Of a DNA stretch of 39,722 nt, positions 13,075 through 39,722 are shown piece by piece. Position 1 is the first letter of the stretch, and each line of letters begins with the position of its first letter. The translations under genes were made by a program, and so were the position numbers. This DNA comes from Lachnospiraceae bacterium (lineage in GTDB: Bacteria > Bacillota > Clostridia > Lachnospirales > Lachnospiraceae). The notes below the pieces were generated by a model. It saw only the letters and a program-made list of their open reading frames with translations, was not told where the DNA came from and ran no database searches. The stretch is from assembly GCA_024692715.1 (NCBI GenBank), contig JAILMH010000070.1, positions 1 through 39,722 of the forward strand, in the 5' to 3' direction.

Positions 13075-13095
13075 AATCTTCTCCATAATACGCCA

Positions 13096-13123
13096 AGAGG
13101 GCATATCAACTGATATGCCCTCT
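13096..13123. repeat. Intercistronic stem-loop before GH127
   Basis: Perfect 13-bp inverted repeat AGAGGGCATATCA / TGATATGCCCTCT with a 2-nt centre, 22 nt upstream of the GH127 start. No U-run follows on the minus strand, so it is more likely an mRNA processing/stability hairpin or partial attenuator than a full terminator. Confidence 0.65.
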
Positions 13124-13147
13124 GACCGAAATCTTTTTAGTTAAAGT

Positions 13148-13399
13148 TTATTTATCCCAAAGCCTGTGAGGGCATTTTGAGCTTTTCATTGCAGCACGCA
13201 GTTCAACAAAGCAGCCGCATGCGCGGCAGGTACCCGCCAGAAGAGAATCACAGCTTTCACATTGAGTAAGTCTCTCGTCATATACCTTATCGCTTGTACG
13301 TTCGTTTTTGGGAATTCCGTTTATAAGCATCTCAAAGCTTTGACGAGTCTTCTCATCTGCCTGCTCATAAGTCAGGCACCTTTTACATTCTCTCAGCAT
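13148..13399 (-). CDS. Small Cys-rich protein, DUF6171-like
   Basis: 83 residues. Cys 5/Cys 8 (CKRC), Cys 47/Cys 50 (CESC), Cys 58/61/63 (CRACGC) and Cys 76 (CPH) form a zinc-ribbon-like pattern ending '[19 protein letters not shown]', which I recall as DUF6171. It probably binds zinc; function unknown. Its ATG overlaps the stop of the GH51 gene (7 bp), so it is translationally coupled, which ties it firmly to the arabinoside operon. It lies between two glycosidases, one of them the zinc-cysteine GH127 enzyme. Confidence 0.8.
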
Positions 13400-14889
13400 A
13401 CCTTTAATGAAACGACTGACATTGCAGGGAGCTTAACTGTAATATGACCATTTGACTCAAGCTTGAAATCAGTGTAATCTGCAAGCTTGACCTTCTCCTT
13501 GTTTGTAAAGTCGTTATGATCATGCATCTCACCTGTAAGGATCGATGCCTTGACCTCTTTAGCATTATATTCAACAGGGATTACATCGATAGTCTCATCC
13601 TTGTCATCTGATGCATTTACAAGAGTGATGGTGATCGAGCCATCCTCAGCGATAGAAGCAGACTGTGAAATCTCCGGTACTTTCTCTTTCTCTGTTCCGA
13701 TAACTTCATTCTCGATGTAGCTTGCAAGAAGCTCTGCATCCTGATGATCCTTGAACATATCAAATACGTGATATGTAGGTGTAAGAAGCATATCTGCACC
13801 ATCTGTAAGGATCACTGCCTGAAGTACGTTTACAAGCTGAGCGATGTTAGCCATCTGAACTCTGTCGGAATGCTGGTTGAAGATGTTAAGTGTAACACCT
13901 GCGACAATAGCATCTCTCATTGTATTCTGCTGGTAAAGGAAGCCCGGATTTGTACCCGGCTCTACGCGATACCATGTACCCCACTCGTCAACGATAAGAC
14001 CGATCCTCTTCTCAGGGTCATACTGATTGATGATGTCACCGTGTCTTGTAATGAGCTCATCCATGTAATAAGCCTTACGGATAGTCTCATAATATTCATC
14101 TCTGTCAAAGTCCAGTGCTGAGCCCTTGTTCTCCCATCCGCCCGGATGAACATAGTAGTGAAGGGATATTCCGCTGATAAGATCCGCCGGATAAGTGCCT
14201 GACTTACCAATGGTCTTCATGGTTGTCTCTGTCCAGTTATAATCATCTACATTTGGACCACCCATGATCTTATACATCTTCTTATCTGTATAATTTCTGC
14301 AGTATGTAGAGTATCTTCTGTATTCATTGGCATAGTGCTCAGGGCGCATATTTCCGCCGCAGCCCCAGTTTTCATTGCCGACGCCGATGAAATTAACATC
14401 CCACGGTTCTTCATGGCCGTTCTTTTTACGAAGGTCAGCCATAGGAGAAACACCCTTAAATGTAAGATATTCTACCCACTCGCTCATTTCCTGAACTGAA
14501 CCTGAGCCAACATTCATGTTTACATATGTCTCACAGCCAAGCTGGCGGCAGAGCTCCATGAACTCATGAGTTCCGAAGCTGTTATCCTCAACTACTCCGC
14601 CCCAGTGAGTGTTGATCATTTTCTTACGTGTTTCCTTAGGGCCGATGCCGTCCTTCCAGTGATATTCGTCTGCAAAGCAGCCGCCCGGCCAGCGAAGTAC
14701 AGGGATCCTGATCTTCTTAAGTGCTTCTACCACATCTGTTCTCATTCCATTTACATTCGGAATATCAGAATTCTCTCCAACATACAAACCTTCATAGATA
14801 CAGCGTCCGAGATGCTCTGAAAAATGACCGTAGATCTCTTTATTGATGTGAGATTTTTTCTCAATCGTATTAATAACTAGTCTTTTCAT
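13393..14889 (-). CDS. abfA: GH51 alpha-L-arabinofuranosidase
   Basis: 498 residues, normal for GH51. It shows the family's start ('[20 protein letters not shown]'), '[14 protein letters not shown]' near residue 65, acid/base Glu 173 in 'GVGNENWG' and nucleophile Glu 302 in 'IVDEWGTW'; a C-terminal beta-sandwich follows. It hydrolyses terminal alpha-L-arabinofuranosyl residues from arabino-oligosaccharides. There is no signal peptide, so it works in the cytoplasm after ABC import. Preceded by the permease gene with an 84-bp gap that holds a stem-loop. Confidence 0.95.
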
Positions 14890-14942
14890 TATATTTGATT
14901 TCCTTTTCTTATACGTTAAATATACTTATATGGTATTTTTAT

Positions 14943-14964
14943 GGGCCATGCTCTCGCATGACCC
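14943..14964 (-). repeat. Intercistronic stem-loop between permease and abfA
   Basis: Minus strand GGGTCATGC, GNRA-type loop GAGA, GCATGGCCC: a stable 9-bp stem including one G-T pair, with no U-run after it. Probably protects or tunes segments of the operon mRNA. Confidence 0.65.
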
Positions 14965-14973
14965 TGTAAGTAC

Positions 14974-15891
14974 TTAACCCTTTACAGCACCTGCTGTCAT
15001 TCCGTCTACAATATATTTCTGGAAGATCAGGAAAAGTATAAGTATCGGAACGATAGCCATCATTGATCCTGCAATAAGCATATCGTAGTTATTTCCGTAT
15101 GGTGTGAGCAATGTATTCAGACCGATAGTAAGTGTGAACTTAGAAGCACTTCTGAATACCATCAATGGCCAGAGCATGTTGTTCCATGAACCCATTGCAC
15201 AAAGGATAGCCATTGCTGAGAATGCCGGCTTAACGATAGGCATCATGATCTTGACTGCGATGAAATATTCGTTCGCTCCGTCAATTCTTCCGGCATCGAG
15301 AAGCTCCTTTGGAAGAGACTTCATATACTGATGGAAGAAGAATATCGTCGATGGTGCACAAAGTCCCGGAAGCATTACACCCCACATTGAATCGATAAGG
15401 TGAAGGGCAATGATCTCCTTGTAAAGAGGGAGCATGAGGATTTCGAAAGGAACCATCATTGTTGCGATAACAAGGACGAAGATGACTCTCTGAAGCTTGA
15501 ATTCATACATGCTGATCGCATACGCTACAAAATAACAGATAATGAGTGTAAGAATAACTGTTGTAACTGTAAGGAGCATTGAATTCTTGAACCACATCCA
15601 ATATTTCATGGCATCAGGTCTGCCGCTGAAAAGGTAGTTGTAGTTATTGAGATTCATCGTGCTGAAATCAAAGCTGATACTAAGTCCTCTTCTGATAAGC
15701 TCACGGCCGGGTCTGAATGATGCGATAAGACCAGCCACAAGAGGAAATACGATTATTAAACTAAGTACAAGGAAAAGTCCTGTAGCAAAGAAGGTACCAA
15801 TGGATCTTTTTACCTTCATTCCGCCCTCTGATTTAACCGCAGAGTTAGAATTATTTGTGCTTGCATCCTGAGCATTTACAGTGTTTACCAT
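14974..15891 (-). CDS. Sugar ABC transporter permease (MalG/AraQ type)
   Basis: 305 residues from the ATG at 15891, which has AGGAGG 6 nt upstream and starts 1 nt after the stop of the other permease; the longer frame to 15975 would overlap that gene. A polar N-terminal tail is followed by six membrane segments. The EAA loop 'LDAGRIDGANEYFIAVKIMMPIVKP', which contacts the ATPase, lies in the second half, and the protein ends 'VDGMTAGAVKG' as in CUT1 permeases. With the upstream permease and binding protein it imports oligosaccharides, most likely arabino-oligosaccharides given the context. No ATPase gene is nearby; a shared MsmK/MsmX-like ATPase is probable. Confidence 0.9.
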   Translation of the reverse strand: MVNTVNAQDASTNNSNSAVKSEGGMKVKRSIGTFFATGLFLVLSLIIVFPLVAGLIASFRPGRELIRRGLSISFDFSTMNLNNYNYLFSGRPDAMKYWMWFKNSMLLTVTTVILTLIICYFVAYAISMYEFKLQRVIFVLVIATMMVPFEILMLPLYKEIIALHLIDSMWGVMLPGLCAPSTIFFFHQYMKSLPKELLDAGRIDGANEYFIAVKIMMPIVKPAFSAMAILCAMGSWNNMLWPLMVFRSASKFTLTIGLNTLLTPYGNNYDMLIAGSMMAIVPILILFLIFQKYIVDGMTAGAVKG

Positions 15892-15892
15892 A

Positions 15893-16789
15893 TCAGTCCT
15901 CCTCCTTCTTAAGAGTTCCATTGAAGAACAACTGTATAAAGTTAATAGTAAGACCAATGACCATAAGCACAACACCTACTGCACAGGCATAACCCATATC
16001 ATTCTTCTCAATTCCTCGCTTGTAGAGGTAACCAACAATTGTAAGTCCAATATTGTTCGGTGAGCTGTTTCCTGACCATAACATAAAGCTCTCAAGGAAC
16101 ATTGAAAGACCTGCATAAATTGTAATGGTAAGTACGTAAATTGATGTCGGCTTGATAAGCGGAATTGTTATGAACTTAAACTTCTGCCAGGTAGTAGCTC
16201 CATCAATGTCTGCTGACTCATAGAGGGACTTGTCGATAGACTTAAGTCCTGAGAGGAAATACAGCATATTTACGCCGGTCCATCTCCAGCAGCAAAGAAG
16301 TAAAAGTGCAATTTCTGATGTCCACTTAACCTTAAGCCACTTAATAGTTGGCATATTCAGCATAGTCATAAGGATGTTAAGCTGTCCTGTCTTATATTCT
16401 GAGAACATAAGTCTGAAAAGAGTACCTGAGATAACAACTGATGTAAGAGCCGGAATATAAAGAACGGCTTTCCATACACCCTTTGCCTTAACAAGTCTTG
16501 AATCCATAAGCACTGCATAAAGAAGTGGGAATGGAATAAGTAACACACATGTTAATAGCATATACTCAAAGCTGTTAAGAACAGCAATATGGAATACTCC
16601 ATCCTTCAAGAGCTTCAAGTAGTTTTTTGCTCCTATGAACTTTGTTGATACTGCTCCAATGTCCTGAAAGCTCATAATAATTGCACTGATCAAAGGATAG
16701 ATCCAGAAAATTACAAAGCTGATCAGGAATGGAAGTGCAAATACATAAGGTGCGGTCTTTTCAGAACAAAGAAATTTTTTTACTTTCAT
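15893..16789 (-). CDS. Sugar ABC transporter permease (MalF/AraP type)
   Basis: 298 residues with six membrane segments. It starts 'EKTAPYVFALPFLISFVIFWIYPLISAI' (typical CUT1 first helix) and has the EAA loop 'LYESADIDGATTWQKFKFITIPLI' near residue 190. Forms a heterodimer with the next permease. It follows the binding-protein gene by 110 bp containing a GC-rich hairpin, and couples closely to the downstream permease. Confidence 0.9.
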   Translation of the reverse strand: MKVKKFLCSEKTAPYVFALPFLISFVIFWIYPLISAIIMSFQDIGAVSTKFIGAKNYLKLLKDGVFHIAVLNSFEYMLLTCVLLIPFPLLYAVLMDSRLVKAKGVWKAVLYIPALTSVVISGTLFRLMFSEYKTGQLNILMTMLNMPTIKWLKVKWTSEIALLLLCCWRWTGVNMLYFLSGLKSIDKSLYESADIDGATTWQKFKFITIPLIKPTSIYVLTITIYAGLSMFLESFMLWSGNSSPNNIGLTIVGYLYKRGIEKNDMGYACAVGVVLMVIGLTINFIQLFFNGTLKKEED

Positions 16790-16829
16790 CGCACTTTTCT
16801 CCTTTTTTTACTTCACAATAAACAAAACA

Positions 16830-16855
16830 GCCACAGGGCGTTGCTGCCCTGCGGC
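16830..16855 (-). repeat. Intercistronic GC-rich stem-loop after the binding-protein gene
   Basis: Minus strand GCCGCAGGGC, loop AGCAAC, GCCCTGTGGC, followed by TGTTTTGTTT. A leaky terminator or 3' stabilising hairpin is common after ABC binding-protein genes and would keep the binding protein in excess over the permeases. Confidence 0.7.
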
Positions 16856-16899
16856 CCTTTTTTTAGTAATTCTTATAAGTTTTAAGAGATCAAAATAAC

Positions 16900-18339
16900 T
16901 TACTCGTCAAGCTCGATAGCCTGCTGAGCCTCTGCAAGTGCATCATCTACTGCTGTACCGTTCTCAAGTACTTCATTCAATGTTGTTGTGCACATCTGCT
17001 CGTTGATAGTCGGGCTGATCTTAACTGTCATGATTGTTCCGATCTGATCCTTGATGTTGTTAAGAACATCGTATGGATAGTTGCGGAAGAATGTGTTGTA
17101 GTAGTTTGAATCATCGTGTGCAAATGAATCATCTTCCCAAAGTGATGTATTACAGATATCGAATCCGAGATCCTCCCAGATAAGCTTCTCGCCTTCCGGA
17201 GACATCTTTGCGAAGCAAAGGAAATCTGCTGCAAGCTCAGGATCTGAAGACTGCTGTGTTACAACTGTACCTGTACCGCCAATACCTACTGAACAGTTCT
17301 GACCTTCTTCAAATACAGGACACTTTGTGATATACCAGTTGCCCTTTTCATCAGGCATATAGTTCTTAAATCTGCTCATGTACCACATAGCCTTAGGGAA
17401 TGAAACGATGTTGTGGTCAAGGATGTTCTGGTAACCTGCCTCAAGATCGATATGTCCGTCAGGTGAAACCTCAGCGATCTTATCATTGAGCCATGACTGC
17501 TGCATATTGAGCATCTTCTTTACAGAATCAAGCTCTACATTAGCCTCTCCGTCATATCCGCCTGTCCAGTCATCACCGTACTCAGCCATTGCAAGCCAGA
17601 GCCAGTCTGTTCCGCCTGTATCAACTGATGTAAAGTACTTTCCGTCTTCTCCAACAGCCTCAACATACTTCTTACCAAGTGCTGTGTAGTCATCCCATGT
17701 AACTACATTATCAACATCTTCCTGTGTGATTCCGTACTTTTCAAGTTCTGCCATGTTCCAGTACATAACAGTTGCACCAACGTGGAACGGAGCTCCATAC
17801 TGCTTTCCGTCAGCTCCCTTGTATGCGTCAAGTCTTGATGTGAGCATATCGCCTGCATAAGGTGTCATTGCCTCATCAAGAGGATAAAGCCACTGATCAA
17901 CGCCTTCATATACGTTAGGAACCTGACCCATCTCAACGTCGCAAAGATCTGGAGCACCTGATCCTGTCTGAAGTGACATGATGAGCTTCTGATGCATATC
18001 TGAGTAAGGATATGTTGTGAATGTGATCTGAATCTGACGATCCGGATTCTGCTCATTCCACTTCTCAAGCATTGTTGCATAGAATGTGTTGTGTGCCTCT
18101 ACGAAAGACCACATCTGCATCTTTGTTCCATCTTCCGGACCAACTGTTGTTACTGCTTCCGGCTCTGCCTCTGTGCCTGATGCATCTTCAGCAGCCTCTT
18201 CGGCGCTTCCTGTACCTTCCTCAGCAGCAGCACCATCTGTAGCTGCTGACCCCTCAGGTGCGTTTACTGAACCGCAGCCTGCAAGAAGTGTAACTGACAT
18301 TGCTGCGCTGATTAATACGCTTACCAGTTTCTTCTTCAT
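16900..18339 (-). CDS. Extracellular sugar-binding lipoprotein of the arabinoside ABC importer
   Basis: 479 residues. Lipobox LLAGC (Cys 22), an acidic Ala/Glu-rich linker to about residue 65, then a family 1 solute-binding domain ('MQMWSFVEAHNTFYATMLEKWNEQNP', 'GTDWLWLAMAEYGDDW', 'GIGGTGTVV'). Many Trp and Tyr residues fit stacking on sugars. Start at 18339 follows AGGAGG. First gene of the operon, about 150 nt downstream of a consensus promoter. Ligand is inferred to be an arabinan- or arabinoside-derived oligosaccharide from the neighbouring GH51/GH127. Confidence 0.92.
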   Translation of the reverse strand: MKKKLVSVLISAAMSVTLLAGCGSVNAPEGSAATDGAAAEEGTGSAEEAAEDASGTEAEPEAVTTVGPEDGTKMQMWSFVEAHNTFYATMLEKWNEQNPDRQIQITFTTYPYSDMHQKLIMSLQTGSGAPDLCDVEMGQVPNVYEGVDQWLYPLDEAMTPYAGDMLTSRLDAYKGADGKQYGAPFHVGATVMYWNMAELEKYGITQEDVDNVVTWDDYTALGKKYVEAVGEDGKYFTSVDTGGTDWLWLAMAEYGDDWTGGYDGEANVELDSVKKMLNMQQSWLNDKIAEVSPDGHIDLEAGYQNILDHNIVSFPKAMWYMSRFKNYMPDEKGNWYITKCPVFEEGQNCSVGIGGTGTVVTQQSSDPELAADFLCFAKMSPEGEKLIWEDLGFDICNTSLWEDDSFAHDDSNYYNTFFRNYPYDVLNNIKDQIGTIMTVKISPTINEQMCTTTLNEVLENGTAVDDALAEAQQAIELDE

Positions 18340-18499
18340 TTAGAAACCTCCTTAATATTTGCTAAAAACTCTCCTGCACAATTTTGTTTAGCTCTTACTC
18401 AATTCGTTTAGTCATTTCAAAAATAATTTAAACAAAGTTTCGAGTTGTTTTTGTGCAACTTGTTGAGTTTTTCGCGTTTCTTTTTCAATTTCTATAGTC

Positions 18500-18528
18500 A
18501 ATATACTACTTTGCATTGTACCTGTCAA
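18500..18528 (-). promoter_or_regulatory. Sigma-A promoter of the arabinoside operon
   Basis: Minus strand TTGACA (18528-18523), 17-nt spacer, TATATT (18505-18500). Start near 18493, so the binding-protein mRNA has a leader of about 150 nt in which I see no clear riboswitch. Confidence 0.8.
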
Positions 18529-18533
18529 TATAC

Positions 18534-18573
18534 AATTTAGATTTTTCTAAAATATATTTGCATTTTCTAAAAT
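18534..18573. promoter_or_regulatory. Tandem operator pair between the divergent promoters
   Basis: Site 1: ATTTAG-N6-CTAAAAT (18535-18553). Site 2: a weaker copy, TATTTG-N6-CTAAAAT (18555-18573), exactly 20 bp away. Both lie between the two -35 boxes (18528 and 18578). A stronger copy of the same motif lies upstream of the GH43 genes. Probable binding sites of the divergent ArsR-type regulator. Confidence 0.55.
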
Positions 18574-18577
18574 TTAA

Positions 18578-18606
18578 TTGAAAGAAGTGCTGAATTGCTT
18601 TATAAT
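18578..18606 (+). promoter_or_regulatory. Sigma-A promoter of the ArsR-type regulator gene
   Basis: TTGAAA (18578-18583), 17-nt spacer, TATAAT (18601-18606). Start near 18613, leaving a leader of about 134 nt. Confidence 0.8.
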
Positions 18607-18624
18607 TAAGCAAAAAGATTCCAT

Positions 18625-18706
18625 CTGAACAGCTCTATTATTCGCTATTCAGGAAATGTTTTGTTTTTTCTAAAGCATTAAAATTAAAAATCATTCTGTT
18701 CAGAAT
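18625..18706. repeat. Paired CTGTTCAG motifs in the regulator's leader
   Basis: CTGAACAG at 18625-18632 and its reverse complement CTGTTCAG at 18696-18703; the second lies within the perfect palindrome ATTCTG-TT-CAGAAT (18693-18706). They could pair in the mRNA or form two half-sites of an autoregulatory operator. Confidence 0.35.
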
Positions 18707-18746
18707 AAATTCAGAACACCATAAACTAAATTGGAGGACCTGCTTA

Positions 18747-19670
18747 ATGATGCATATCAAATCTGTCGAGGAAGGCCGTGAGATCTTCAAGGCACTCGGT
18801 TCAGATATACGTATAGAAATAATTAAAACGCTTCTTGCTAATGATCATATGAATATGAACGAACTCGCTTCTCATTTAAAGATCACTAACGGAGCACTTA
18901 CAAGTCACATAAAAAAGCTAGAGGAATGTGGGATCGTCTCCACTTCTCAGGAGACTTCAGGACATGGTAATCAAAAGATCTGTTCTGTTCACCTCGACTC
19001 AGTCTTAATAGATTTCAAAGGCAATGAAGTCGAAGACAAGAATGTATATCGTTCTCATATAAGTATTGGTCAGTATGGCGAATACGACGTATATCCTACC
19101 TGCGGACTTGCCTCTTCCGAGTCACTCATCGGTGAAGTTGACGACGCAAGATACTTTGCCCATCCCGACAGAGGAACTGCCGATATTCTCTGGTTCACAC
19201 ACGGATATGTGGAATACATGGTTCCAAACTTCATTCCGCCGGACCAGAAGATAGATCAGCTCTCCTTCTCAATGGAGCTCAGCTCCGAAGCACCGGGTTC
19301 TAATGATAACTGGCCGAGTGACATCCACTTCATGCTCAACGGAACTCCTATCGGAATGTGGACTTCTCCAGGAGACTTCGGCGGTACAAAGGGTATCTTC
19401 ACCCCTGAGTGGTGGTATCCTAACTGGAATCAGTACGGTCTTCTTAAGAACCTCGTAATTAATCACAACGGCACATATATAGATGGTCTCCGCATTTCCG
19501 ATGTGACCATCGACCGTTTCGATCTGAACTATAAAAGCCAGGTTCGTTTAAGACTTTCTGTACCTGAGGACACAACACACGTAGGCGGCCTTACAATATT
19601 CGGCAAATCCTTTGGAAACTACCGCCAGGACATCGATGTATCGATCTACTACTCTCCAATGAGCGTATGA
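18747..19670 (+). CDS. ArsR-type winged-helix regulator with a large C-terminal sensor domain
   Basis: 307 residues; ATG 10 nt after GGAGG. Residues 12-80 form an ArsR-like winged helix ('EIFKALGSDIRIEIIKTLL', 'NELASHLKITNGALTSHIKKLEECGIV'). The remaining 225 residues are a Trp/Gly-rich, probably beta-sandwich domain ('SDIHFMLNGTPIGMWTSPGDFG', 'EWWYPNWNQYGLLKNLVIN', 'FDLNYKSQVRLRLSVPE'), reminiscent of a sugar-binding fold. Classical ArsR proteins are about 100 residues and bind metals, but no metal-ligand cluster is evident here. Divergent from the arabinoside operon, so it is the likely local regulator sensing arabinose or an oligosaccharide. Whether it activates or represses cannot be read directly; operator placement allows activation. 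Confidence 0.85.
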   Translation: MMHIKSVEEGREIFKALGSDIRIEIIKTLLANDHMNMNELASHLKITNGALTSHIKKLEECGIVSTSQETSGHGNQKICSVHLDSVLIDFKGNEVEDKNVYRSHISIGQYGEYDVYPTCGLASSESLIGEVDDARYFAHPDRGTADILWFTHGYVEYMVPNFIPPDQKIDQLSFSMELSSEAPGSNDNWPSDIHFMLNGTPIGMWTSPGDFGGTKGIFTPEWWYPNWNQYGLLKNLVINHNGTYIDGLRISDVTIDRFDLNYKSQVRLRLSVPEDTTHVGGLTIFGKSFGNYRQDIDVSIYYSPMSV

Positions 19671-19685
19671 TATCAGTCATTCAAA

Positions 19686-19722
19686 GAGTATCCTGCATTT
19701 AATATGTAGGATATTCTTTTTT
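19686..19722 (+). terminator. Intrinsic terminator of the regulator gene
   Basis: Stem GAGTATCCTGCAT / ATGTAGGATATTC (13 bp with three G-T pairs) followed by TTTTTTATT, 16 nt after the stop codon. Confidence 0.85.
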
Positions 19723-20073
19723 ATTGTATTTTAATCATTATGGTCTCAATTCCCTTTTTGTCTTTATATATAAATTTTAATAATACATGTCTCTACACTC
19801 TCCACCAGCGAAACCATAACTCAATAAATTTTTTTGTACTAAATGTACAATTACAACTTTTATTTTCAATAATTCTCTCCGTCATTATCACTATTTTGCT
19901 TTTATATTTTCAATTTACAGAAAAAATAAGGGGTTTTCTTTTTTGAATGTATACAGTATACTGTGTTTCATATTAATCTGACAGCGATACAACTTATCAC
20001 TGTCATTTATTTTATTATGTCGAGAATAATCTATAAACATTGCACTATATTGTAAAATTTACAAGGAGAAAAA
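19723..20073 (+). other. AT-rich intergenic region before cheY with palindromes
   Basis: No convincing gene; a 68-codon open frame at 19740 has no ribosome site. Visible elements are a perfect 12-bp palindrome ACAGTATACTGT (19953-19964), a hairpin TGACAG...CTGTCA (about 19980-20006) followed by TTTATTTTATT that could end a short transcript, and a perfect palindrome TTGTAAA-A-TTTACAA (20050-20064) that overlaps the ribosome site of cheY. Confidence 0.4.
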
Positions 20074-20436
20074 ATGAGTAAAAAAGTTTTAATCGTAGAC
20101 GACGCAACATTCATGAGAACCATGCTTTCAGGAATACTCAAGAACGGCGGATATGAAGTTGCCGGCGAAGCTTCAAACGGAAAAGAAGCTGTAGCACAGT
20201 ATAAAACATTAAAACCAGATCTCGTAACAATGGATATCACAATGCCTGAGATGGACGGTCTTGAAGCACTTAAAGCGATCAAAGCTGAAGATCCTGCAGC
20301 AACAGTTATCATGTGCTCAGCCATGGGTCAGCAGGCTATGGTAATCAGCGCCATCAAGAACGGAGCAAAGGATTTCATCGTAAAGCCTTTCGACGCTGAT
20401 CATGTTATCGAGTCTGTTCGTAAACAGATCGGTTAA
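20074..20436 (+). CDS. cheY: Stand-alone CheY-type response regulator
   Basis: 120 residues, a single receiver domain. Acidic pocket Asp 9/Asp 10, phospho-acceptor Asp 54 in 'VTMDITMPEMDG', switch Ser 82 and Lys 104 in 'IVKPF'. Closest in style to the CheY of Firmicutes, which binds FliM when phosphorylated. No kinase or chemotaxis gene is adjacent, so it is an orphan; partner kinase unknown. ATG follows AAGGAG, with own terminator. Confidence 0.93.
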   Translation: MSKKVLIVDDATFMRTMLSGILKNGGYEVAGEASNGKEAVAQYKTLKPDLVTMDITMPEMDGLEALKAIKAEDPAATVIMCSAMGQQAMVISAIKNGAKDFIVKPFDADHVIESVRKQIG

Positions 20437-20445
20437 TTTATATGC

Positions 20446-20486
20446 AAAAGACCGTCGCACATCAGATCTGTGCAACGGTCTTTTTT
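20446..20486. terminator. Bidirectional terminator between cheY and the GH43 lipoprotein gene
   Basis: AAAGACCGT/ACGGTCTTT outer stem with inner GCACA/TGTGC stem, a U-run on the plus side (TTTTTT) and TTTT on the minus side. It serves both convergent genes. Confidence 0.88.
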
Positions 20487-20497
20487 AATTGTTTATC

Positions 20498-22021
20498 TTA
20501 TTTATAATACTGAACAGCCCAGACTGTTTCATTTTCAGCTGCTCCGGTGAAGCACATGCAGTCATTTCCAGCTTCATCCTTCATTTCAAGCATGACTCCC
20601 TTAAATTCCTTTTCATTTATGAACATAGTAGCATACGGCGAATTTGCTTTAACTATCAAAGCGCCTTCCCTGTCACCTTCCATTGTTCCGTCCGCAGCCA
20701 CCTTGACTTTTTCGCATTCATGAACCTTTCTGGAAATATCCGTGCCGTGAGCAACAAGATAATACATACCTGAAATTGCCTCCTGCGCATAGCCATCGCT
20801 TTTCAGCGATTCTCCTGAAACTGCAAAAGGTGCAGCGACCAGCCAGTCATCTTCATTTCGGAATAACTGATGAACCCTTGGTTCATGAGCCTCAGTACCG
20901 TTTTTGAATCTTTGATGATATACCATATACATCTTTCCATCAAGATCACAAAATGCCGAATTATGCCCCGGAGCCATATAAGTATAGGACAATGACGGGA
21001 AAGTATAATTCCCGATCATTTTAAGCCCGAATTTAGAATGATCTATAACCTTCCCCGGCGAATTATTATTCATATCAACATACGGACCATCGACTTGTCT
21101 TGATCTGTAAAGTCGTATCTGATATCCACCCTTGGCGTTTAACTCCCCGTAGGAAACAAAAAGATAATAATAATCACTCACCTTATCATATAAAATATAC
21201 GGGCCTTCGATAGAATTATGACCTCCGCCTATCAGATGTTTTCCATAATAAGCGTCTGTATTTTCTGCTTTATTTTCCTCAGGATGTATCGGAAGTCCGG
21301 TATTTTCATCCAGCTGTAAAAGAAATATTCCGCCGGACCATGAGCCATATACCATCCACATCTTTCCCTCTTTGTCATTGAAAACGCAGGGATCGATGCA
21401 GTTAGGCCATTTCTGATTATCATAGTCATTATCTTTCAGATAATCATTCAGTTCAGATTTATCATGATAGTCAAGAAAGTCCGTATTATAAACAGTCCGG
21501 TTATTAAACCCAGAATCAAGTATTCTGTCAATAAATTTATAAGGACCTGTCACCTTATCCGCAGCTGCATAACACAGCGAAGATTTCTTATAAGTAGATG
21601 TCGTGCAAAAGTACATGACATATTTATTCATAGCTTTATTGAAAATAACATCCGGAGCCCATACAGAATATCCATTCTCCTGATTTCTCCCGACGAAGGA
21701 AAATGCCCCGAGGTCACCGTTTAAGAGGTTGCTGAAAAGCTTATTTTTTTCATCAACTCCTTCAAAAAGCTGTGTCCAGTTCCTAAGGTCAGTCGATTCC
21801 GCCACCGCCATATGCGTTCCAAATATATAATATTTACCATTTTCAACATATATGGACGGATCATGCACTGATGCTCCTGCCGTAAATCCACCGCTTTTTT
21901 CCACTATTTCAGACTCTGACATATCTCCTCTGTACAAATCCATCTTTTTCACAGCAGCCATTCCGCATCCACCCAGAAACATAGCCGCAGCTACAAGCAA
22001 AGGTACAAGCCCAAATTTCAT
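20498..22021 (-). CDS. GH43 lipoprotein, arabinan endo-1,5-alpha-L-arabinanase-like
   Basis: 507 residues. Lipobox FLGGC (Cys 19) anchors it outside the cell. A five-bladed beta-propeller carries the GH43 triad: Asp 54 ('SVHDPSIY', catalytic base), Asp 210 ('CIDPCVF') and Glu 272 ('SIEGPYIL', acid). A C-terminal beta domain of about 130 residues follows, as in larger endo-arabinanases such as B. subtilis Abn2. It would cut alpha-1,5-arabinan into oligosaccharides for import. 17 bp after the cytoplasmic GH43 gene, same transcript. Specificity is inferred from motif style and context. Confidence 0.88.
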   Translation of the reverse strand: MKFGLVPLLVAAAMFLGGCGMAAVKKMDLYRGDMSESEIVEKSGGFTAGASVHDPSIYVENGKYYIFGTHMAVAESTDLRNWTQLFEGVDEKNKLFSNLLNGDLGAFSFVGRNQENGYSVWAPDVIFNKAMNKYVMYFCTTSTYKKSSLCYAAADKVTGPYKFIDRILDSGFNNRTVYNTDFLDYHDKSELNDYLKDNDYDNQKWPNCIDPCVFNDKEGKMWMVYGSWSGGIFLLQLDENTGLPIHPEENKAENTDAYYGKHLIGGGHNSIEGPYILYDKVSDYYYLFVSYGELNAKGGYQIRLYRSRQVDGPYVDMNNNSPGKVIDHSKFGLKMIGNYTFPSLSYTYMAPGHNSAFCDLDGKMYMVYHQRFKNGTEAHEPRVHQLFRNEDDWLVAAPFAVSGESLKSDGYAQEAISGMYYLVAHGTDISRKVHECEKVKVAADGTMEGDREGALIVKANSPYATMFINEKEFKGVMLEMKDEAGNDCMCFTGAAENETVWAVQYYK

Positions 22022-22038
22022 TCTTCCAGCTCCCTCTC

Positions 22039-22980
22039 TTACAGATTGAAAACAGGATATCCCTTATCATCCCAAACTACTTTGAGCAGCATTGCATGTC
22101 TGTTTGGATCATAAAGCGGGTCCTCGCAGATGAGCTTATCTGTTGTCCTGGCATGAAATACCATGATGTCATTTCCCTGTTCATCAGTAGTAAAGCAGTT
22201 ATGCCCCGGTCCATAGATCTTCTTTGTGATATCAGACTTAAGTACAGGATCGTGAAGCTTGCTCCAGCTCTGTGGATCGAGCATGTCTGCGTCCTCATCT
22301 GCTGTGAGCATTCCCACGCAATATGCAGGACTTGTATCAGAAGCACTGAAGGTAAGGAAGATCTTTCCATCGTGATGGATCACTGAAGGCCCTTCATTTA
22401 CCCAGAAACCATGTCTTTCCCAGCTGTAATCCGGAGTTGTGAGCAGCACCTGACAGGTCTCGAGCTCGTTGGCGCTCTTCATTTTAGCTATATAAAGATT
22501 AGAGATCTGTCTTCCAACGCTGACCTTTTCAGCCCAGACGTAATACCAGTCACCTTTATTTTCAAAAACTGTCGCATCTAATGAAAAAGCTCTGAAAGAG
22601 AATTCATCATCAGGTGCTGCTTTCATCTTGCCAAGCTCAACCCATTCATCCTTCATCGGGTCATCACCGGTACATTTTAGTACATAAGGACGAAGTGCCC
22701 AGATATCATCTTTATCGCTGGCAGCAAAGTACATATACCATCCACCGAAAAGATAGTGAAGCTCCGGAGCCCACACGTTACAGCTCATGATCCCTGACTC
22801 ATGCTTATTCCATATTACTTTCTCCTCTGCACTTTCAAGTCCCTCAAGAGAATCTGCACAACGGAGCATTACCCTGTCGTATTCCGGTACTGAAGCTGTA
22901 AAATAATATTTACCGTTCTCAGCATGTAATACATAAGGATCCGCTCTCTGTGGTATCCATTCTTCAGCATAATTTAACAT
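22039..22980 (-). CDS. Cytoplasmic GH43 arabinofuranosidase/exo-arabinanase-like enzyme
   Basis: 313 residues from the ATG at 22980 (GAGG 8 nt upstream; the longer GTG start at 22989 overlaps that site). One five-bladed propeller with Asp 14 ('QRADPYVL'), Asp 135 ('FSLDATVF') and Glu 196 ('VNEGPSVI') as the GH43 triad. No signal peptide and no extra domain. It probably trims imported arabino-oligosaccharides from the end. First gene of a two-gene operon with its own promoter and a strong palindromic operator. Beta-xylosidase activity is possible for this family. Confidence 0.88.
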   Translation of the reverse strand: MLNYAEEWIPQRADPYVLHAENGKYYFTASVPEYDRVMLRCADSLEGLESAEEKVIWNKHESGIMSCNVWAPELHYLFGGWYMYFAASDKDDIWALRPYVLKCTGDDPMKDEWVELGKMKAAPDDEFSFRAFSLDATVFENKGDWYYVWAEKVSVGRQISNLYIAKMKSANELETCQVLLTTPDYSWERHGFWVNEGPSVIHHDGKIFLTFSASDTSPAYCVGMLTADEDADMLDPQSWSKLHDPVLKSDITKKIYGPGHNCFTTDEQGNDIMVFHARTTDKLICEDPLYDPNRHAMLLKVVWDDKGYPVFNL

Positions 22981-23009
22981 GATCCACACCTCATTTTTCT
23001 AATTTTCAA

Positions 23010-34865: not shown

Positions 34866-37800
34866 TTATTTCACAAGCTTTCCATTCTCATCAAATTCGT
34901 ATGTACGTCCCCACACGCTTATCTTTCCTGTGATCATCTTACCATCTTTTGCGAATCTGTAAGTATCATCACCTACATTCATCCAGCCTGTGTACATCTT
35001 ACCATCCTCGTTGAAATAATAAGTATCTCCGTCTATCACTCTGATACCGTCATTTACCATATAACCATTTTCATCAAAGTAATAGCTTCCTGTCCAGGTC
35101 TTCATAAAGCCCTTGACGAGGCTTCCATCCTTTGCTGCATAGAATGTATGCTCTTCTCCGTCGCTTCCCTGAGCCTTAAAGAATGCCGAAGTCTTCATAG
35201 CACCCTTCTTCTCAGGATCAAAGTAACGTGTTGCACCGTCTACAACTGCAAAACCTGTAACTCTTTCACCATCCTGATTCATGCAGAAGGTCTTGCCCCA
35301 CGCCTTCTTAAGGGTATAGACATTTTCATCACCTGCGCCGGCCTTTCTGACTCCCACAAAGCTGATAACAGGATCAGCGCTGCCGGTTTTTGCAACTCTT
35401 ACTGTTACCTTACCTGCATGCTCTGCATCAACAGTAAATTTCTGGCTTATCTGAAGATTTGTGCTTGTCTTCTCAACATTAAATGAAGTCTCTGCAAGAA
35501 CATCATCTCCTGCTTCAACAGTCATATTGCATGGACGCTTTGTGCTCCACCATTCCTGGAAGCCCTCAGTTACAGTGTACTCACCTTCTTCAAGGTCAAA
35601 GCTGTAAACGATATCCTTATTGCTTGCAGCCCACCAGCCATTGCTTAAGTAATCATCACCATCATGATGTCCAAGGTCATAGCTTGAAGAATTCTCACTC
35701 TTAAGGACACCTTCGTATCCGGCTTTATTATCTGCTGTGTATCTCTGATCTGCTTCTGTATTTCTAAGTGCTTTTACATTTTTCTTAAGAACATCAAAGT
35801 AATCAGATGTCTCTGCACCACTATCAAAGAAATAAATAGTGTCAGGATCAGCAATGCTTACCTTGTGTGTAAAGGTTCTTCCCGTATCAGCAAGAGTACC
35901 TGTAAGCTCAACCTCTCCAAGTGCATTTTCATCTGCATCTGCTTCCCATGTAACGGCTTCTGTAACCTCGCCTTTACCATAGTCTACCTTTACTTCTGAA
36001 GGTAATCCGCTCTCGAGATCTGCTGCAGATTCAACAACCTCCGGAAGTTCATCTGTATTTACCTCAAAGCTTCCCTTGTTCTCAAGTTCATCAAGAGTCC
36101 AGTTCTCATACTTCTTAAGCGAAATAGTATTTCCTGTGCCGAACTCGATCGGAAGCAATACGTATCTTGAATCGCTCAGATCCTTGCCTTCATCAGGATT
36201 GAACCAGCGGTCGCCTACATAGATATACTTACCGTTTTCAGCATCATAAGGAATTACATATGTACTCTGAGTATCAAATGTTGTGTTTGTTGTATCATCT
36301 ACACACGGGTTGCCCATTGTTGTCCACGGACCAAGCATGCTGTCAGCAACGGCATAGCTTGCCTGATTTGGAGCCCAGCCTGTACATCCTGAAGTAATGA
36401 TATAGTATTTGCCGTTGTACTTAAACGGTGCCGGAGCTTCACGACTTGAACCGATGAAGTTTCTTGTAAAGTCAACTCCCTCTTCATTTCCTGCAATACC
36501 TGTATATTCCTCATTTAGCTTGGCGATATACATTGTTGAATTTCCGTCTGATGAGTAAACAACATATGCCTGTCCGTCATCATCCACAAAGAGGTTCATA
36601 TCACGGACTGAACCGCCTACAGTATCCCATCCAAGGTCTGCATCTTCTGATGTGGCGAGCTTATAGCAGCCCACGAGCTTGAACGGTCCATCCGGTGTAT
36701 CACTTATTGCGATACCTGCTCTTGCCTTACTGTACTTACTTGAAGCTGTACGGTTTGACTTCATCATTCCGTCAGCATGGAACCACATTACATATTTCTT
36801 TGTTTTTTCGTTATAAATAACCTTAGGACGCTCAATGATGCAGCGGTCACCTGCAAGATTCCAGTAGGTTTCCTCAAGCTTGCTGTCATACTGATCGTCA
36901 TCCGGCTCCTGTCCTTCATAATCTCCGTAAAGTGCCTTGAAGTACTCATCATCTTCAAATACTGAGAGATCGGCTTCTTCTGTTGCATAAGAGCCATACT
37001 GTGAATCATCCGGCACGATAGTTCTAAGAACAACGCCCTGATCATCCCAGTTATAAAGATCATCTGAAGTATAAAGATGTACACCTGTTACAGGATCTGT
37101 TCCGTAGGTCTTATCTTCACCATACCAGTAATACTTTGTCTCACCGTTTACAGTGAATTTACTGATCTGACCGCCGTGAGCCTGAACCTTATTTCCGGAT
37201 GTATCATAAAGTCTCTCTCCTGCAGTACCTGTTATTGATGAATATGTCTTGATCTCCTTCTCTTCCTCAGACTTCTTTCCGGCCTTTACGATAATGTAGC
37301 TAAGAATTGGATCAGCATACTGACTTGTACGATTCGGATTATGAATCATAACATTGAGTTCGCCATCCTTAACTTCCACATCATAAGTCTCTTCAACTAG
37401 AGTTCCCTGCGGCAGGCTGAGTGATCTTGCTGCAGTTTCGCCCTCAAGTGTTACATTTACAACCCTTGAGCTCCATGGATTCTTAAAGCCGACAGTTACA
37501 TTGTAATCTGTATCCCCTGTCTCAGGCACTTCAAACTTATACTTAAATCCACTTACGCCCTTCTTAAAGGTCACATCCGGTGACATATAGATATAAGTAT
37601 CTGTAAGTCCATCTCCTGAACCGCCTTTAACAGCCTCTGAATACTGATCATCAGGCTCGATTCCCCACTTCATACCTGTAAGAGGATCTTCTGTATACTC
37701 CTGATCAGTATTTGACTGGCATACTCCGAGAACATAGTCCTCCGGAACAAGTGATGCATCATCCGCACCGGCATTTACAAGGTAAAGGACATTATCGTTC

Positions 37801-39722
37801 TCTTCAATGTCTTCCTTAGTGATCTTGGTATTAAGATTTGCGATTGCATCCTCAATAGCCTTTTCAGCCGAATCAATATCCTCCTGTGTAGCTGCTGCCT
37901 TTACAAGAAGTGTACGTCCATTCTCTGCTGCCTCTTTAACATCAGAAACTCTTCTTTCAGGGTATGCCGACTCATCGATCGAATCTGCACTTACAATAGC
38001 AGCCTTAAGTCCATCAAGATCAAGAAGCTTCTGCGCCTTGATAAATGAAAGGACCGGATCAGAGCTTCCTGTCTTTGCAACTGTGAAAGTAACCTCTGCA
38101 TCCTCATCAAGAGTAAATTCATACTTGGCTGTATTCCAGTTCTTGCTGCCGTTAAGGCTGTTAGTTGTGCCTAATGTTGTTGTCTTACCGTTAACTTCGG
38201 CTGTGATCTTCATCGGGCGATTTACCCACCACCATTCCTTAAAGCCAAAGGTGAGCTTATAATCTCCGGCAGTCATTGGAAGCTTATACTGGATATCCTG
38301 TCCATTATAAGCATAATAGCCTATATCATAGCTATCGCTTACATCACAGTTATCAGGTCCATATTTACCATAATCTCCGACATAACCCCATGAGCCATCG
38401 CTATATTTCTGATCCGGTGTCTCATTCAGAAGGTCTGCATACTCATCGATCTCTTTGTAGGTCGTAGATTCTGCATTGTTACAATCGATATACCATGCCA
38501 GATTATTCTCAGCGGCCTTGATAGTTGCCTTTGCAGTGATATCTGTGCCTTCTACCGTGCCTTCTACAGTTTCACCGTTCTTTGAAAGATCCTTATCAGC
38601 TGTATCCCAGCTGACAGCTGCAGTCTTGGTATTGTTTTTATTTGTCTTTACTGTAACTGTCTCAGGAAGTTTTGCATCAAAGCCCTCAACTGTATAAACT
38701 GTTGTATCTTCAACACTCTTGATAACCTCCTCAGAACTATCATAGCTTACACCATCGATAGTGTAGGTTGTTATTGAATTTGCTTTAAGCTCTGCTGTGA
38801 GTGTCTTTGCGTCCTGATCTACCTTTATATCATCAGAATCAGAAACATCGCTCCAGTTTTCACCATCTTCAAGAGTTCCGCTTGTTCTTATGGCTTCAAC
38901 ATTTGTTCCGACAGTTGAGAAATCAGAAAGATCGAACTTCTCTGTCTTCTCTTCATCAGAAGTATTCATTGCAACGATAACAACCTCACCGTCTTTTTTA
39001 TCATAGGCGGCAAGAATATTGTTCTCATCGCTTGAACCGATGATCGTGTCTCCGGGTCTTACATATCTTGAGATCTGACCAAAGCCGTAATACTTCTTAC
39101 TGAGCTCAACCTTCTCATTATCGTGGTCAGCAAATGCTATTCCCCAGAAGCCTTTAGATTCATCAACTTTTCCTAAAAGCTCATCTAAAGAATCGTAGTC
39201 ATATTCATTAGTCGAATCAGCGTGCATATCGATGGCATTCCAGAGAATCCATGCACTGGCATCAAGGCCATTGATATCAGTCATCATTCTCTGTGCTATT
39301 CCAAGTGCATCTGTCATTTCACCGGCATCTGTACCTGCTGTAAATTTACCGTCGACCTCTGACATCCAGAGATTCTTTCCCTCTGATTCAGCCAACTCTT
39401 TAAGCTGGCTTCTCTTACTTCCACTGTAGGTATGTGTATCTATACGGTCTACAGCCGCCTTGGCCTCATCATCAAGAGCGTTATAAGCCTTGATCGCCGT
39501 ATCTATACTTGTCTCGTCAGTACCTGCAAGAACTATATCGATACCTCTGCTCTCAAGCTCTTTGTTGAGCTCATTAAGGATATTTGACTGTGAATCGCCT
39601 ATATCAAAGTGACAGCCTTCCTGTTTATTGGAATATGCTGACCAGTAATTTGTATAAGGCTCATTCATCGGATCTGTTGAAGAAAATTCAATACCCTCAT
39701 TCTTCCAATGCTCGATCACATC
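34866..39722 (-). CDS. Giant surface type II arabinogalactan hydrolase: GH30 + GH43_24-like + carbohydrate-binding modules + cell-wall repeats (N-terminus missing)
   Basis: 1618 residues visible; the frame continues past the right edge, so signal peptide and the first part of GH30 are missing. Numbering from the edge: GH30 C-terminal part 1-330 (acid/base Glu 21 in 'DPMNEP', nucleophile Glu 122 in 'WMSEVDG'), resembling endo-beta-1,6-galactanases (GH30_5). Then an Ig-like bacterial module (335-400), module A (406-560), a FIVAR-like helical repeat (562-632), module B (642-812), GH43 propeller (825-1210), a second Ig-like module (1225-1290), module C (1292-1460) and glucan/choline-binding-type repeats (1467-1618, 'GSYYFDENGYMVNDG' pattern). 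The GH43 has Glu 964, Glu 1095 ('REAPAPF') and Gln 1152 ('DTQSTY'), the set known in GH43_24 exo-beta-1,3-galactanases. Inferred role: cell-wall-attached attack on arabinogalactan-protein glycans. Confidence 0.88.
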   Translation of the reverse strand, partial: DVIEHWKNEGIEFSSTDPMNEPYTNYWSAYSNKQEGCHFDIGDSQSNILNELNKELESRGIDIVLAGTDETSIDTAIKAYNALDDEAKAAVDRIDTHTYSGSKRSQLKELAESEGKNLWMSEVDGKFTAGTDAGEMTDALGIAQRMMTDINGLDASAWILWNAIDMHADSTNEYDYDSLDELLGKVDESKGFWGIAFADHDNEKVELSKKYYGFGQISRYVRPGDTIIGSSDENNILAAYDKKDGEVVIVAMNTSDEEKTEKFDLSDFSTVGTNVEAIRTSGTLEDGENWSDVSDSDDIKVDQDAKTLTAELKANSITTYTIDGVSYDSSEEVIKSVEDTTVYTVEGFDAKLPETVTVKTNKNNTKTAAVSWDTADKDLSKNGETVEGTVEGTDITAKATIKAAENNLAWYIDCNNAESTTYKEIDEYADLLNETPDQKYSDGSWGYVGDYGKYGPDNCDVSDSYDIGYYAYNGQDIQYKLPMTAGDYKLTFGFKEWWWVNRPMKITAEVNGKTTTLGTTNSLNGSKNWNTAKYEFTLDEDAEVTFTVAKTGSSDPVLSFIKAQKLLDLDGLKAAIVSADSIDESAYPERRVSDVKEAAENGRTLLVKAAATQEDIDSAEKAIEDAIANLNTKITKEDIEENDNVLYLVNAGADDASLVPEDYVLGVCQSNTDQEYTEDPLTGMKWGIEPDDQYSEAVKGGSGDGLTDTYIYMSPDVTFKKGVSGFKYKFEVPETGDTDYNVTVGFKNPWSSRVVNVTLEGETAARSLSLPQGTLVEETYDVEVKDGELNVMIHNPNRTSQYADPILSYIIVKAGKKSEEEKEIKTYSSITGTAGERLYDTSGNKVQAHGGQISKFTVNGETKYYWYGEDKTYGTDPVTGVHLYTSDDLYNWDDQGVVLRTIVPDDSQYGSYATEEADLSVFEDDEYFKALYGDYEGQEPDDDQYDSKLEETYWNLAGDRCIIERPKVIYNEKTKKYVMWFHADGMMKSNRTASSKYSKARAGIAISDTPDGPFKLVGCYKLATSEDADLGWDTVGGSVRDMNLFVDDDGQAYVVYSSDGNSTMYIAKLNEEYTGIAGNEEGVDFTRNFIGSSREAPAPFKYNGKYYIITSGCTGWAPNQASYAVADSMLGPWTTMGNPCVDDTTNTTFDTQSTYVIPYDAENGKYIYVGDRWFNPDEGKDLSDSRYVLLPIEFGTGNTISLKKYENWTLDELENKGSFEVNTDELPEVVESAADLESGLPSEVKVDYGKGEVTEAVTWEADADENALGEVELTGTLADTGRTFTHKVSIADPDTIYFFDSGAETSDYFDVLKKNVKALRNTEADQRYTADNKAGYEGVLKSENSSSYDLGHHDGDDYLSNGWWAASNKDIVYSFDLEEGEYTVTEGFQEWWSTKRPCNMTVEAGDDVLAETSFNVEKTSTNLQISQKFTVDAEHAGKVTVRVAKTGSADPVISFVGVRKAGAGDENVYTLKKAWGKTFCMNQDGERVTGFAVVDGATRYFDPEKKGAMKTSAFFKAQGSDGEEHTFYAAKDGSLVKGFMKTWTGSYYFDENGYMVNDGIRVIDGDTYYFNEDGKMYTGWMNVGDDTYRFAKDGKMITGKISVWGRTYEFDENGKLVK

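Follow-up and report, generated by a model that had tools for sequence, protein, structure and literature searches.

Plant foods and gums are rich in type II arabinogalactan. Its breakdown has been described for Bacteroides and Bifidobacterium, and a full-text literature search returned no description of it for Lachnospiraceae. In Bifidobacterium longum, a single AGP cluster carries the genes of Bl1,6Gal (GH30_5, BLLJ_1841) and Bl1,3Gal (GH43_24, BLLJ_1840), and Bl1,6Gal is reported to be inactive on arabinose-substituted substrates. Among GH30_5 enzymes, residue numbering and the roles of cleft and secondary-site residues are taken here from the account of Sa16Gal30A, the endo-β-1,6-galactanase of Streptomyces avermitilis (PMC13431644, 2026). 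In this enzyme loop 2 contributes Lys114 to the cleft wall, Gln229 is said to select galactose over xylose, and a secondary site for Gal2 is reported to be shared by several characterised members (PMC13431644). For GH43_24, numbering and roles follow Pc1,3Gal43A, which carries a CBM35; exo-galactanases of this subfamily are stated to bypass β-1,6 branches (PMC7939473).

The window, that is, the whole stretch of DNA analysed here (39,722 nucleotides of contig JAILMH010000070.1 from Lachnospiraceae bacterium, assembly GCA_024692715.1), holds a gene in which domains of both families are joined. The ORF at 34866-39722 comprises 1618 codons on the minus strand, with its stop codon at 34866-34868 and its 5' side open, the contig ending at base 39722 and truncating it. 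Its GH30 domain is represented by the C-terminal half, and its GH43_24 domain is complete; the parts are arranged as follows:

34866..39722, minus strand: fused GH30 / GH43_24 gene, its 5' part extending about 410 codons past the contig end by comparison with KH1T2
38733..39722, minus strand: C-terminal part of the GH30 (β/α)8 barrel, and β-sandwich
38544..38714, minus strand: bacterial Ig-like domain (Big_4, Pfam)
38013..38519, minus strand: CBM-like module A, boundaries by eye
37830..38012, minus strand: FIVAR-like stretch, E 0.0027, below the Pfam cut-off
37269..37826, minus strand: CBM-like module B, boundaries by eye, CBM_35 below cut-off, β-rich in the model
36078..37247, minus strand: GH43_24 catalytic domain
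36831-36833, minus strand: Glu964, O4 recognition, role by its Pc1,3Gal43A counterpart
36438-36440, minus strand: Glu1095, acid, role by its Pc1,3Gal43A counterpart
36267-36269, minus strand: Gln1152, base, role by its Pc1,3Gal43A counterpart
35325..36077, minus strand: second Big_4 match, its exact place inferred, then CBM-like module C
34875..35306, minus strand: choline-binding-type repeats

Pfam matches of the ORF above cut-off are GH43, Choline_bind_3 and two Big_4, with GH30C, FIVAR and CBM_35 below it. Because the gene is truncated at the contig edge, its N-terminus cannot be read from the source genome, and a search of that genome with the GH30 part gave a single match, the fused gene itself. 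The sequence-only reading had placed the remainder of the GH30 domain beyond 39722; the full domain could be read in the ortholog of Lachnospiraceae bacterium KH1T2 (L033/G038). This protein of 2028 aa has 87% identity to that of the window across the 1618 residues common to both, so that about 410 N-terminal residues are absent from the window. It comprises a complete GH30, CBM-like modules, GH43_24 and choline-binding-type repeats, and its N-terminus has a hydrophobic stretch that resembles a signal peptide by eye. An intact GH30 domain and an export signal are assumed for the source strain from its orthologs. Relative to KH1T2, dN/dS is low in both catalytic parts (0.05 and 0.02), these being rough values since dS exceeds 1.

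The claim of one polypeptide with GH30- and GH43_24-like domains is upheld by the ORF, by the ortholog and by a wider survey. At least 550 relatives of the GH30 domain were confirmed by contig scan. In 27 of the best 80 loci, which were those analysed, the two domains lie in one ORF, KH1T2 among them and with GH30 first in all 27; a strong GH43_24 match lies in the next ORF in L037, L044 and L057 (Eubacterium ramulus), and some of the remaining loci stop at contig edges. Of the 99 genomes examined, 48 are from the same genus, and 7 of these, counting the source genome, have both domains in a single open frame (G000, G009, G014, G033, G037, G038 and G039); G047 has a GH30 piece only, at a contig end. 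The family sample yielded at least 4 of 299 genomes with both domains in the same open frame, as judged by same contig and frame length (G000, G227, G243 and G260), and at least two (G186 and G263) with GH30 and GH43_24 in separate nearby frames; the class sample yielded at least 1 of 391 at E 1e-25, the source genome only. Counts in these two samples are lower bounds, at most two candidates having been scored per genome. Within the genomes sampled, the fusion is confined to Lachnospiraceae and to records labelled as close kin. The draft state of the genome and the gene stopping at a contig edge could suggest an assembly or frameshift artefact. Such a reading is refuted by the KH1T2 ortholog and by the counts in the same genus (7 of 48) and among the best 80 of at least 550 relatives (27); with one open frame carrying both domains in several further genomes, among them isolates and the three-contig G033, its probability is negligible.

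In a GH30 tree of 48 rows, which includes the loop-2 columns and a few rows with very long branches, the fused label needs 5 changes, at least 4 of them forced by supported branches, against a shuffled mean of 16.4. This tree would fit both one fusion followed by losses and several fusions. The loci L058-L062, from Pseudobutyrivibrio and Butyrivibrio fibrisolvens 16/4, each have a single ORF (2432-2449 aa) that joins another GH43-type domain to GH30 and GH43_24, with a tail that is membrane-like by eye:

L058, 7163-14512: three-headed relative
L059, 7157-14494: three-headed relative
L060, 7133-14479: three-headed relative
L061, 2882-10180: three-headed relative
L062, 7130-14476: three-headed relative

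L058, the one three-headed row put through Pfam, also has laminin-G and aBig_2 domains. The extra GH43 matches the solved GH43 3kst weakly (E 7.3e-5) and may be arabinofuranosidase-like, by general resemblance. In L037, L038, L044 and L057, a GH43 of this extra type and GH30 share one ORF. Among the papers listed by the full-text search, no title or abstract opening deals with a GH30_5-GH43_24 fusion, which CAZy or subscription journals may nevertheless list, and the passages naming GH30 in two rumen papers (PMC6344614, PMC7480376) mention no GH30/GH43_24 fusion.

The subfamily given to the GH43 head in the sequence-only reading is likewise upheld. Its Pfam GH43 match has E 5.4e-14, and it matches 6eug (BT3683), 3vsf (Ct1,3Gal43A), 6euf (BT0265) and 7bys (Pc1,3Gal43A) with E-values from 1.9e-61 to 1.7e-39. 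The eight best of 15 solved-sequence matches are three Pc1,3Gal43A entries, Ct1,3Gal43A, BT3683, BT0265, 5flw (a putative exo-β-1,3-galactanase) and 3nqh (BT_2959). A model of window residues 633-1465 (mean pLDDT 86.6) has BT3683 and Pc1,3Gal43A as top Foldseek matches, the ten best being chains of these two, of BT0265, Ct1,3Gal43A and BT_2959, and of a putative exo-β-1,3-galactanase from Bifidobacterium bifidum. Each of the 28 rows of the GH43 alignment has the eight subsite -1 residues of Pc1,3Gal43A (Glu57, Glu102, Arg103, Tyr126, Asp158, Glu208, Trp229 and Gln263), so that the residues by which the subfamily is recognised, the Glu acid, the unusual Gln base that replaces the usual Asp, the O4-recognition Glu and the rest of subsite -1, are all present. 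The plus subsites vary: all 28 rows retain Asn180 but have Gly in place of Asn179, and only 6 carry Gln at the position of Gln181. The closest relatives of this head are exo-β-1,3-galactanases, and the same activity is predicted for it. The single GH43_24 match in the source genome (a draft, 90% complete) is the fused gene. The GH43 profile PF04616 falls short of E 0.1 in L027, although the L027 protein matches the GH43 part of the window well.

In the GH30 part, the acid/base and nucleophile motifs noticed in the sequence-only reading could be located at Glu21 in NEP (codon 39660-39662) and Glu122 in WMSE (codon 39357-39359), and both residues are kept in the 47 rows of the GH30 alignment (46 of the best 80 loci plus the window sequence). 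A profile search of the source genome, in which the window carries the C-terminal GH30 part, gave no match to PF02055, and PF14587 matches the KH1T2 domain (E 5.4e-18). Window residues 7-327 match Sa16Gal30A (PDB 24td) with E 1.9e-29 in a search of solved-structure sequences. For the complete KH1T2 domain, the match to 24td has E 1.7e-36, followed by 7n6h (GH30_10, 1.1e-12) and 3clw (1.5e-9); overall identity to Sa16Gal30A is low. Ten cleft residues of Sa16Gal30A were mapped by hand via the phmmer alignment, Lys114 being unmappable. At eight of these positions (Asn216, Glu217, Gln229, Tyr294, Glu320, Trp350, Asp354 and Trp359) all 47 rows have the same residue as Sa16Gal30A. Trp222 is kept in none (Tyr in 38, Phe in 8, Asp in 1), nor is Pro355. 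Of the secondary, distal site, Arg301 is kept in 46 rows and Ser297 in 44, and Trp341 and Asp302 are absent from all 47, so that the Gal2 site looked for as a mark of GH30_5 is not kept as such. The head is best called GH30_5-like, in the sense that it probably works in the same way, and it may or may not be a formal member.

It could be supposed that this head acts on another polysaccharide, such as xylan or β-1,6-glucan, the fusion then being a broad pectin or hemicellulose tool. GH30 is functionally diverse, the aligned rows depart from Sa16Gal30A at Pro355, at Trp222 and in the secondary site, and Foldseek, run on the KH1T2 GH30 model (mean pLDDT 92.6), returns GH30 enzymes as top matches with xylan-active ones first, from a library (to April 2026) that predates 24td. 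The losses of Pro355 and Asp302 make the main reading slightly less confident and this alternative slightly likelier. It nevertheless seems improbable, given that the E-value of the best sequence match, a β-1,6-galactanase, is below that of the next by more than 20 orders of magnitude and that the counterparts of Gln229, Trp350, Asp354 and Trp359 are invariant. Cleavage of β-1,6-galactan thus stays the preferred reading for the GH30 head, and type II arabinogalactan, the theme of the sequence-only reading, is the likely substrate of the protein to judge from the closest characterised relatives of both families.

In place of the cleft loops without major insertions expected of GH30_5, a large insert is present in loop 2 in 25 of the 46 rows that reach the region, where this loop has 193-358 residues as opposed to 6-22 in the other 21. 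In KH1T2, 194 residues separate the conserved GGG that follows strand 2 of the barrel (Gly73) from the conserved His268:

L033 ORF residues 106-299 and equivalents: β-rich insert in GH30 barrel loop 2, beside the catalytic cleft

In the model, the insert appears as a run of β strands (model residues 137-250). It occurs in 20 of 24 fused rows, in all 3 rows whose GH43_24 is encoded by the adjacent gene and in 2 of 19 others. It is absent from four fused rows of the Pseudobutyrivibrio type, so insert and fusion are separable, and the idea that they always go together was rejected. Several relatives have weak CBM_35 or "CBM-like" matches here, all below cut-off; compared with modules A-C, the insert gives a best E of 0.04 and is not recognisable as a duplicate of any of them.

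This loop bears on the mode of cleavage. The label "endo" given to the GH30 part in the sequence-only reading cannot be maintained as it stands, GH30_5 also including the exo-acting Bl1,6Gal, and nothing here separates endo from exo. The head may instead be an exo-β-1,6-galactobiohydrolase that frees β-1,6-galactobiose from chain ends, the insert closing the cleft past subsite -2. Sa16Gal30A is described as endo-acting, but Bl1,6Gal, a GH30_5 enzyme whose gene is clustered with the GH43_24 gene Bl1,3Gal, is a reported exo-β-1,6-galactobiohydrolase, and the loop that supplies Lys114 to the cleft wall of Sa16Gal30A carries some 190 extra residues here. Exo action is a possibility of some weight, though not the one we would choose. 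If the proposal as a whole is true, the insert would provide a concrete handle on the choice between endo and exo action in GH30_5-like enzymes.

Of the accessory modules, A is 34% identical to C across 143 residues, and malectin matches for the region of A were seen in relatives only (L039 and L049, with L027 below cut-off). The C-terminal repeats match Choline_bind_3 in four stretches (E 6.5e-14). The sequence-only reading had them hold the protein at the cell: the tail is indeed of a wall-binding type, and anchoring to the producer's own cell wall is what it would suggest, but the repeats also resemble glucan-binding repeats (TIGR04035, below cut-off) and the tails of glucosyltransferases. 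By this resemblance they could bind plant or extracellular glucan and leave the enzyme substrate-bound or free, which would agree with the tail having no LPXTG-type motif by eye. Tails are swapped among the fused relatives (repeats, membrane-like, dockerin, Ig or fn3-like, mostly by eye), and those that end in a membrane-like tail (L051 and L058-L062, by eye) or a dockerin (L039) suggest tethering, so that glucan binding seems rather unlikely and a surface-held protein is preferred. The dockerin-bearing fused GH30/GH43_24 protein (L039:9052-16443) comes from a record labelled Dorea.

Two further features of the window belong to the gene context:

11128..22989: arabinoside locus with GH127, GH51, a sugar ABC transporter, an HTH regulator and two GH43
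23300-25684: phosphoketolase, after the arabinoside locus

The arabinan/arabinoside locus pointed out in the sequence-only reading is therefore real, but lies 12-24 kb from the fused gene and not about 10. With this gap, a regulator-like gene and a transporter of its own, and unrelated-looking genes between, it does not form one operon with the fusion. A similar gene set lies about 12 kb from the fusion of KH1T2 (near-identical N-termini and similar lengths, by eye). No gene was recognised beside the fused gene that would import galactan products or process them inside the cell. Four other ORFs of the source genome match the C-terminal repeat region, with GH43/laminin-G, a GH127 middle domain, DUF5695 and chitobiase C-terminal-type domains, respectively; the first two are proteins of the arabinose-enzyme type. 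The DUF5695 protein (1929 aa, L118:9995-15784, G000:C15) has the same kind of repeat tail; its gene has a GH127 gene and, as judged by eye, LacI-like and ABC-like genes in its neighbourhood, and DUF5695 may be an arabinose-polymer enzyme. In G033, a GH127 protein (L027:13789-17433) immediately adjoins the fusion, and in G039 a 1724-aa protein with YD/RHS-like repeats by eye (L025:656-5830) is encoded several genes upstream of it. The genome context is compatible with a surface system that handles polymers rich in arabinose and galactose.

From the two domains, their catalytic residues, the modules, and the fusion and its conservation, as read in sequences and models, it seems likely that the gene encodes a secreted, surface-held type II arabinogalactan enzyme with a GH30 and a GH43_24 head, accessory modules and a tail. 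Such a two-headed protein would probably digest both branches and backbone. Secretion, the substrates, the mode of attack and anchoring are predicted properties, and cooperation between the heads is suggested by the fusion alone. Arabinofuranosidases would first strip the side chains, the retaining GH30 head would cut and shorten the cleared β-1,6-galactan side chains, and GH43_24 would consume the backbone past the leftover stubs, near the cell. The three CBM-like modules and, in the ortholog, the CBM-like domain in loop 2 may hold both heads on the same polymer, and the C-terminal repeats may retain the product close to the cell. This order is the likely one in view of the bypass described for GH43_24 and of the block of Bl1,6Gal by arabinose. 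However, "branches removed, then backbone", as the sequence-only reading had it, is too strict: since GH43_24 exo-galactanases bypass β-1,6 branches (PMC7939473), removing branches first is not required, and the order may be reversed or simultaneous.

Should this hold, a single protein would let a group of Lachnospiraceae from gut and rumen attack both linkages. More tentatively, one may imagine a line of megaenzymes in Lachnospiraceae and close kin, in which both galactanases form one machine, the loop-2 CBM steers the substrate and some members add an arabinofuranosidase-like GH43, much of the utilisation route thus residing in one surface protein; we regard this extended picture as conceivable but doubtful.

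Bacteria of this sort commonly have surface enzymes with several catalytic domains. BlArafD and BlArafE of B. longum are likewise described as surface proteins in which two catalytic domains, acting on related substrates, share one polypeptide; their heads are tandem GH43, whereas here GH30 and GH43_24 are combined. For the GH43 head, Pc1,3Gal43A, Ct1,3Gal43A (the structure entry of which is named ricin-B lectin protein) and BT3683 agree with it throughout the eight residues of subsite -1, the Gln base among them. Some plus-subsite residues differ here, and in the passages describing these enzymes no GH30 domain is mentioned. Sa16Gal30A has the catalytic residues and 8 of the 10 mapped cleft residues in common with the GH30 head, which lacks Trp222, Pro355 and the secondary-site residues Trp341 and Asp302; its description includes neither a second catalytic domain nor a large loop-2 domain. 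A close parallel is with Bl1,6Gal and Bl1,3Gal of B. longum, described as cell-surface anchoring enzymes of the same two families directed at type II arabinogalactan. There they are two proteins from two genes; here there is one polypeptide, with other accessory modules. Enzymes of the GH30_5 and GH43_24 types are thus already known, separate in the best-studied case and joined in this one.
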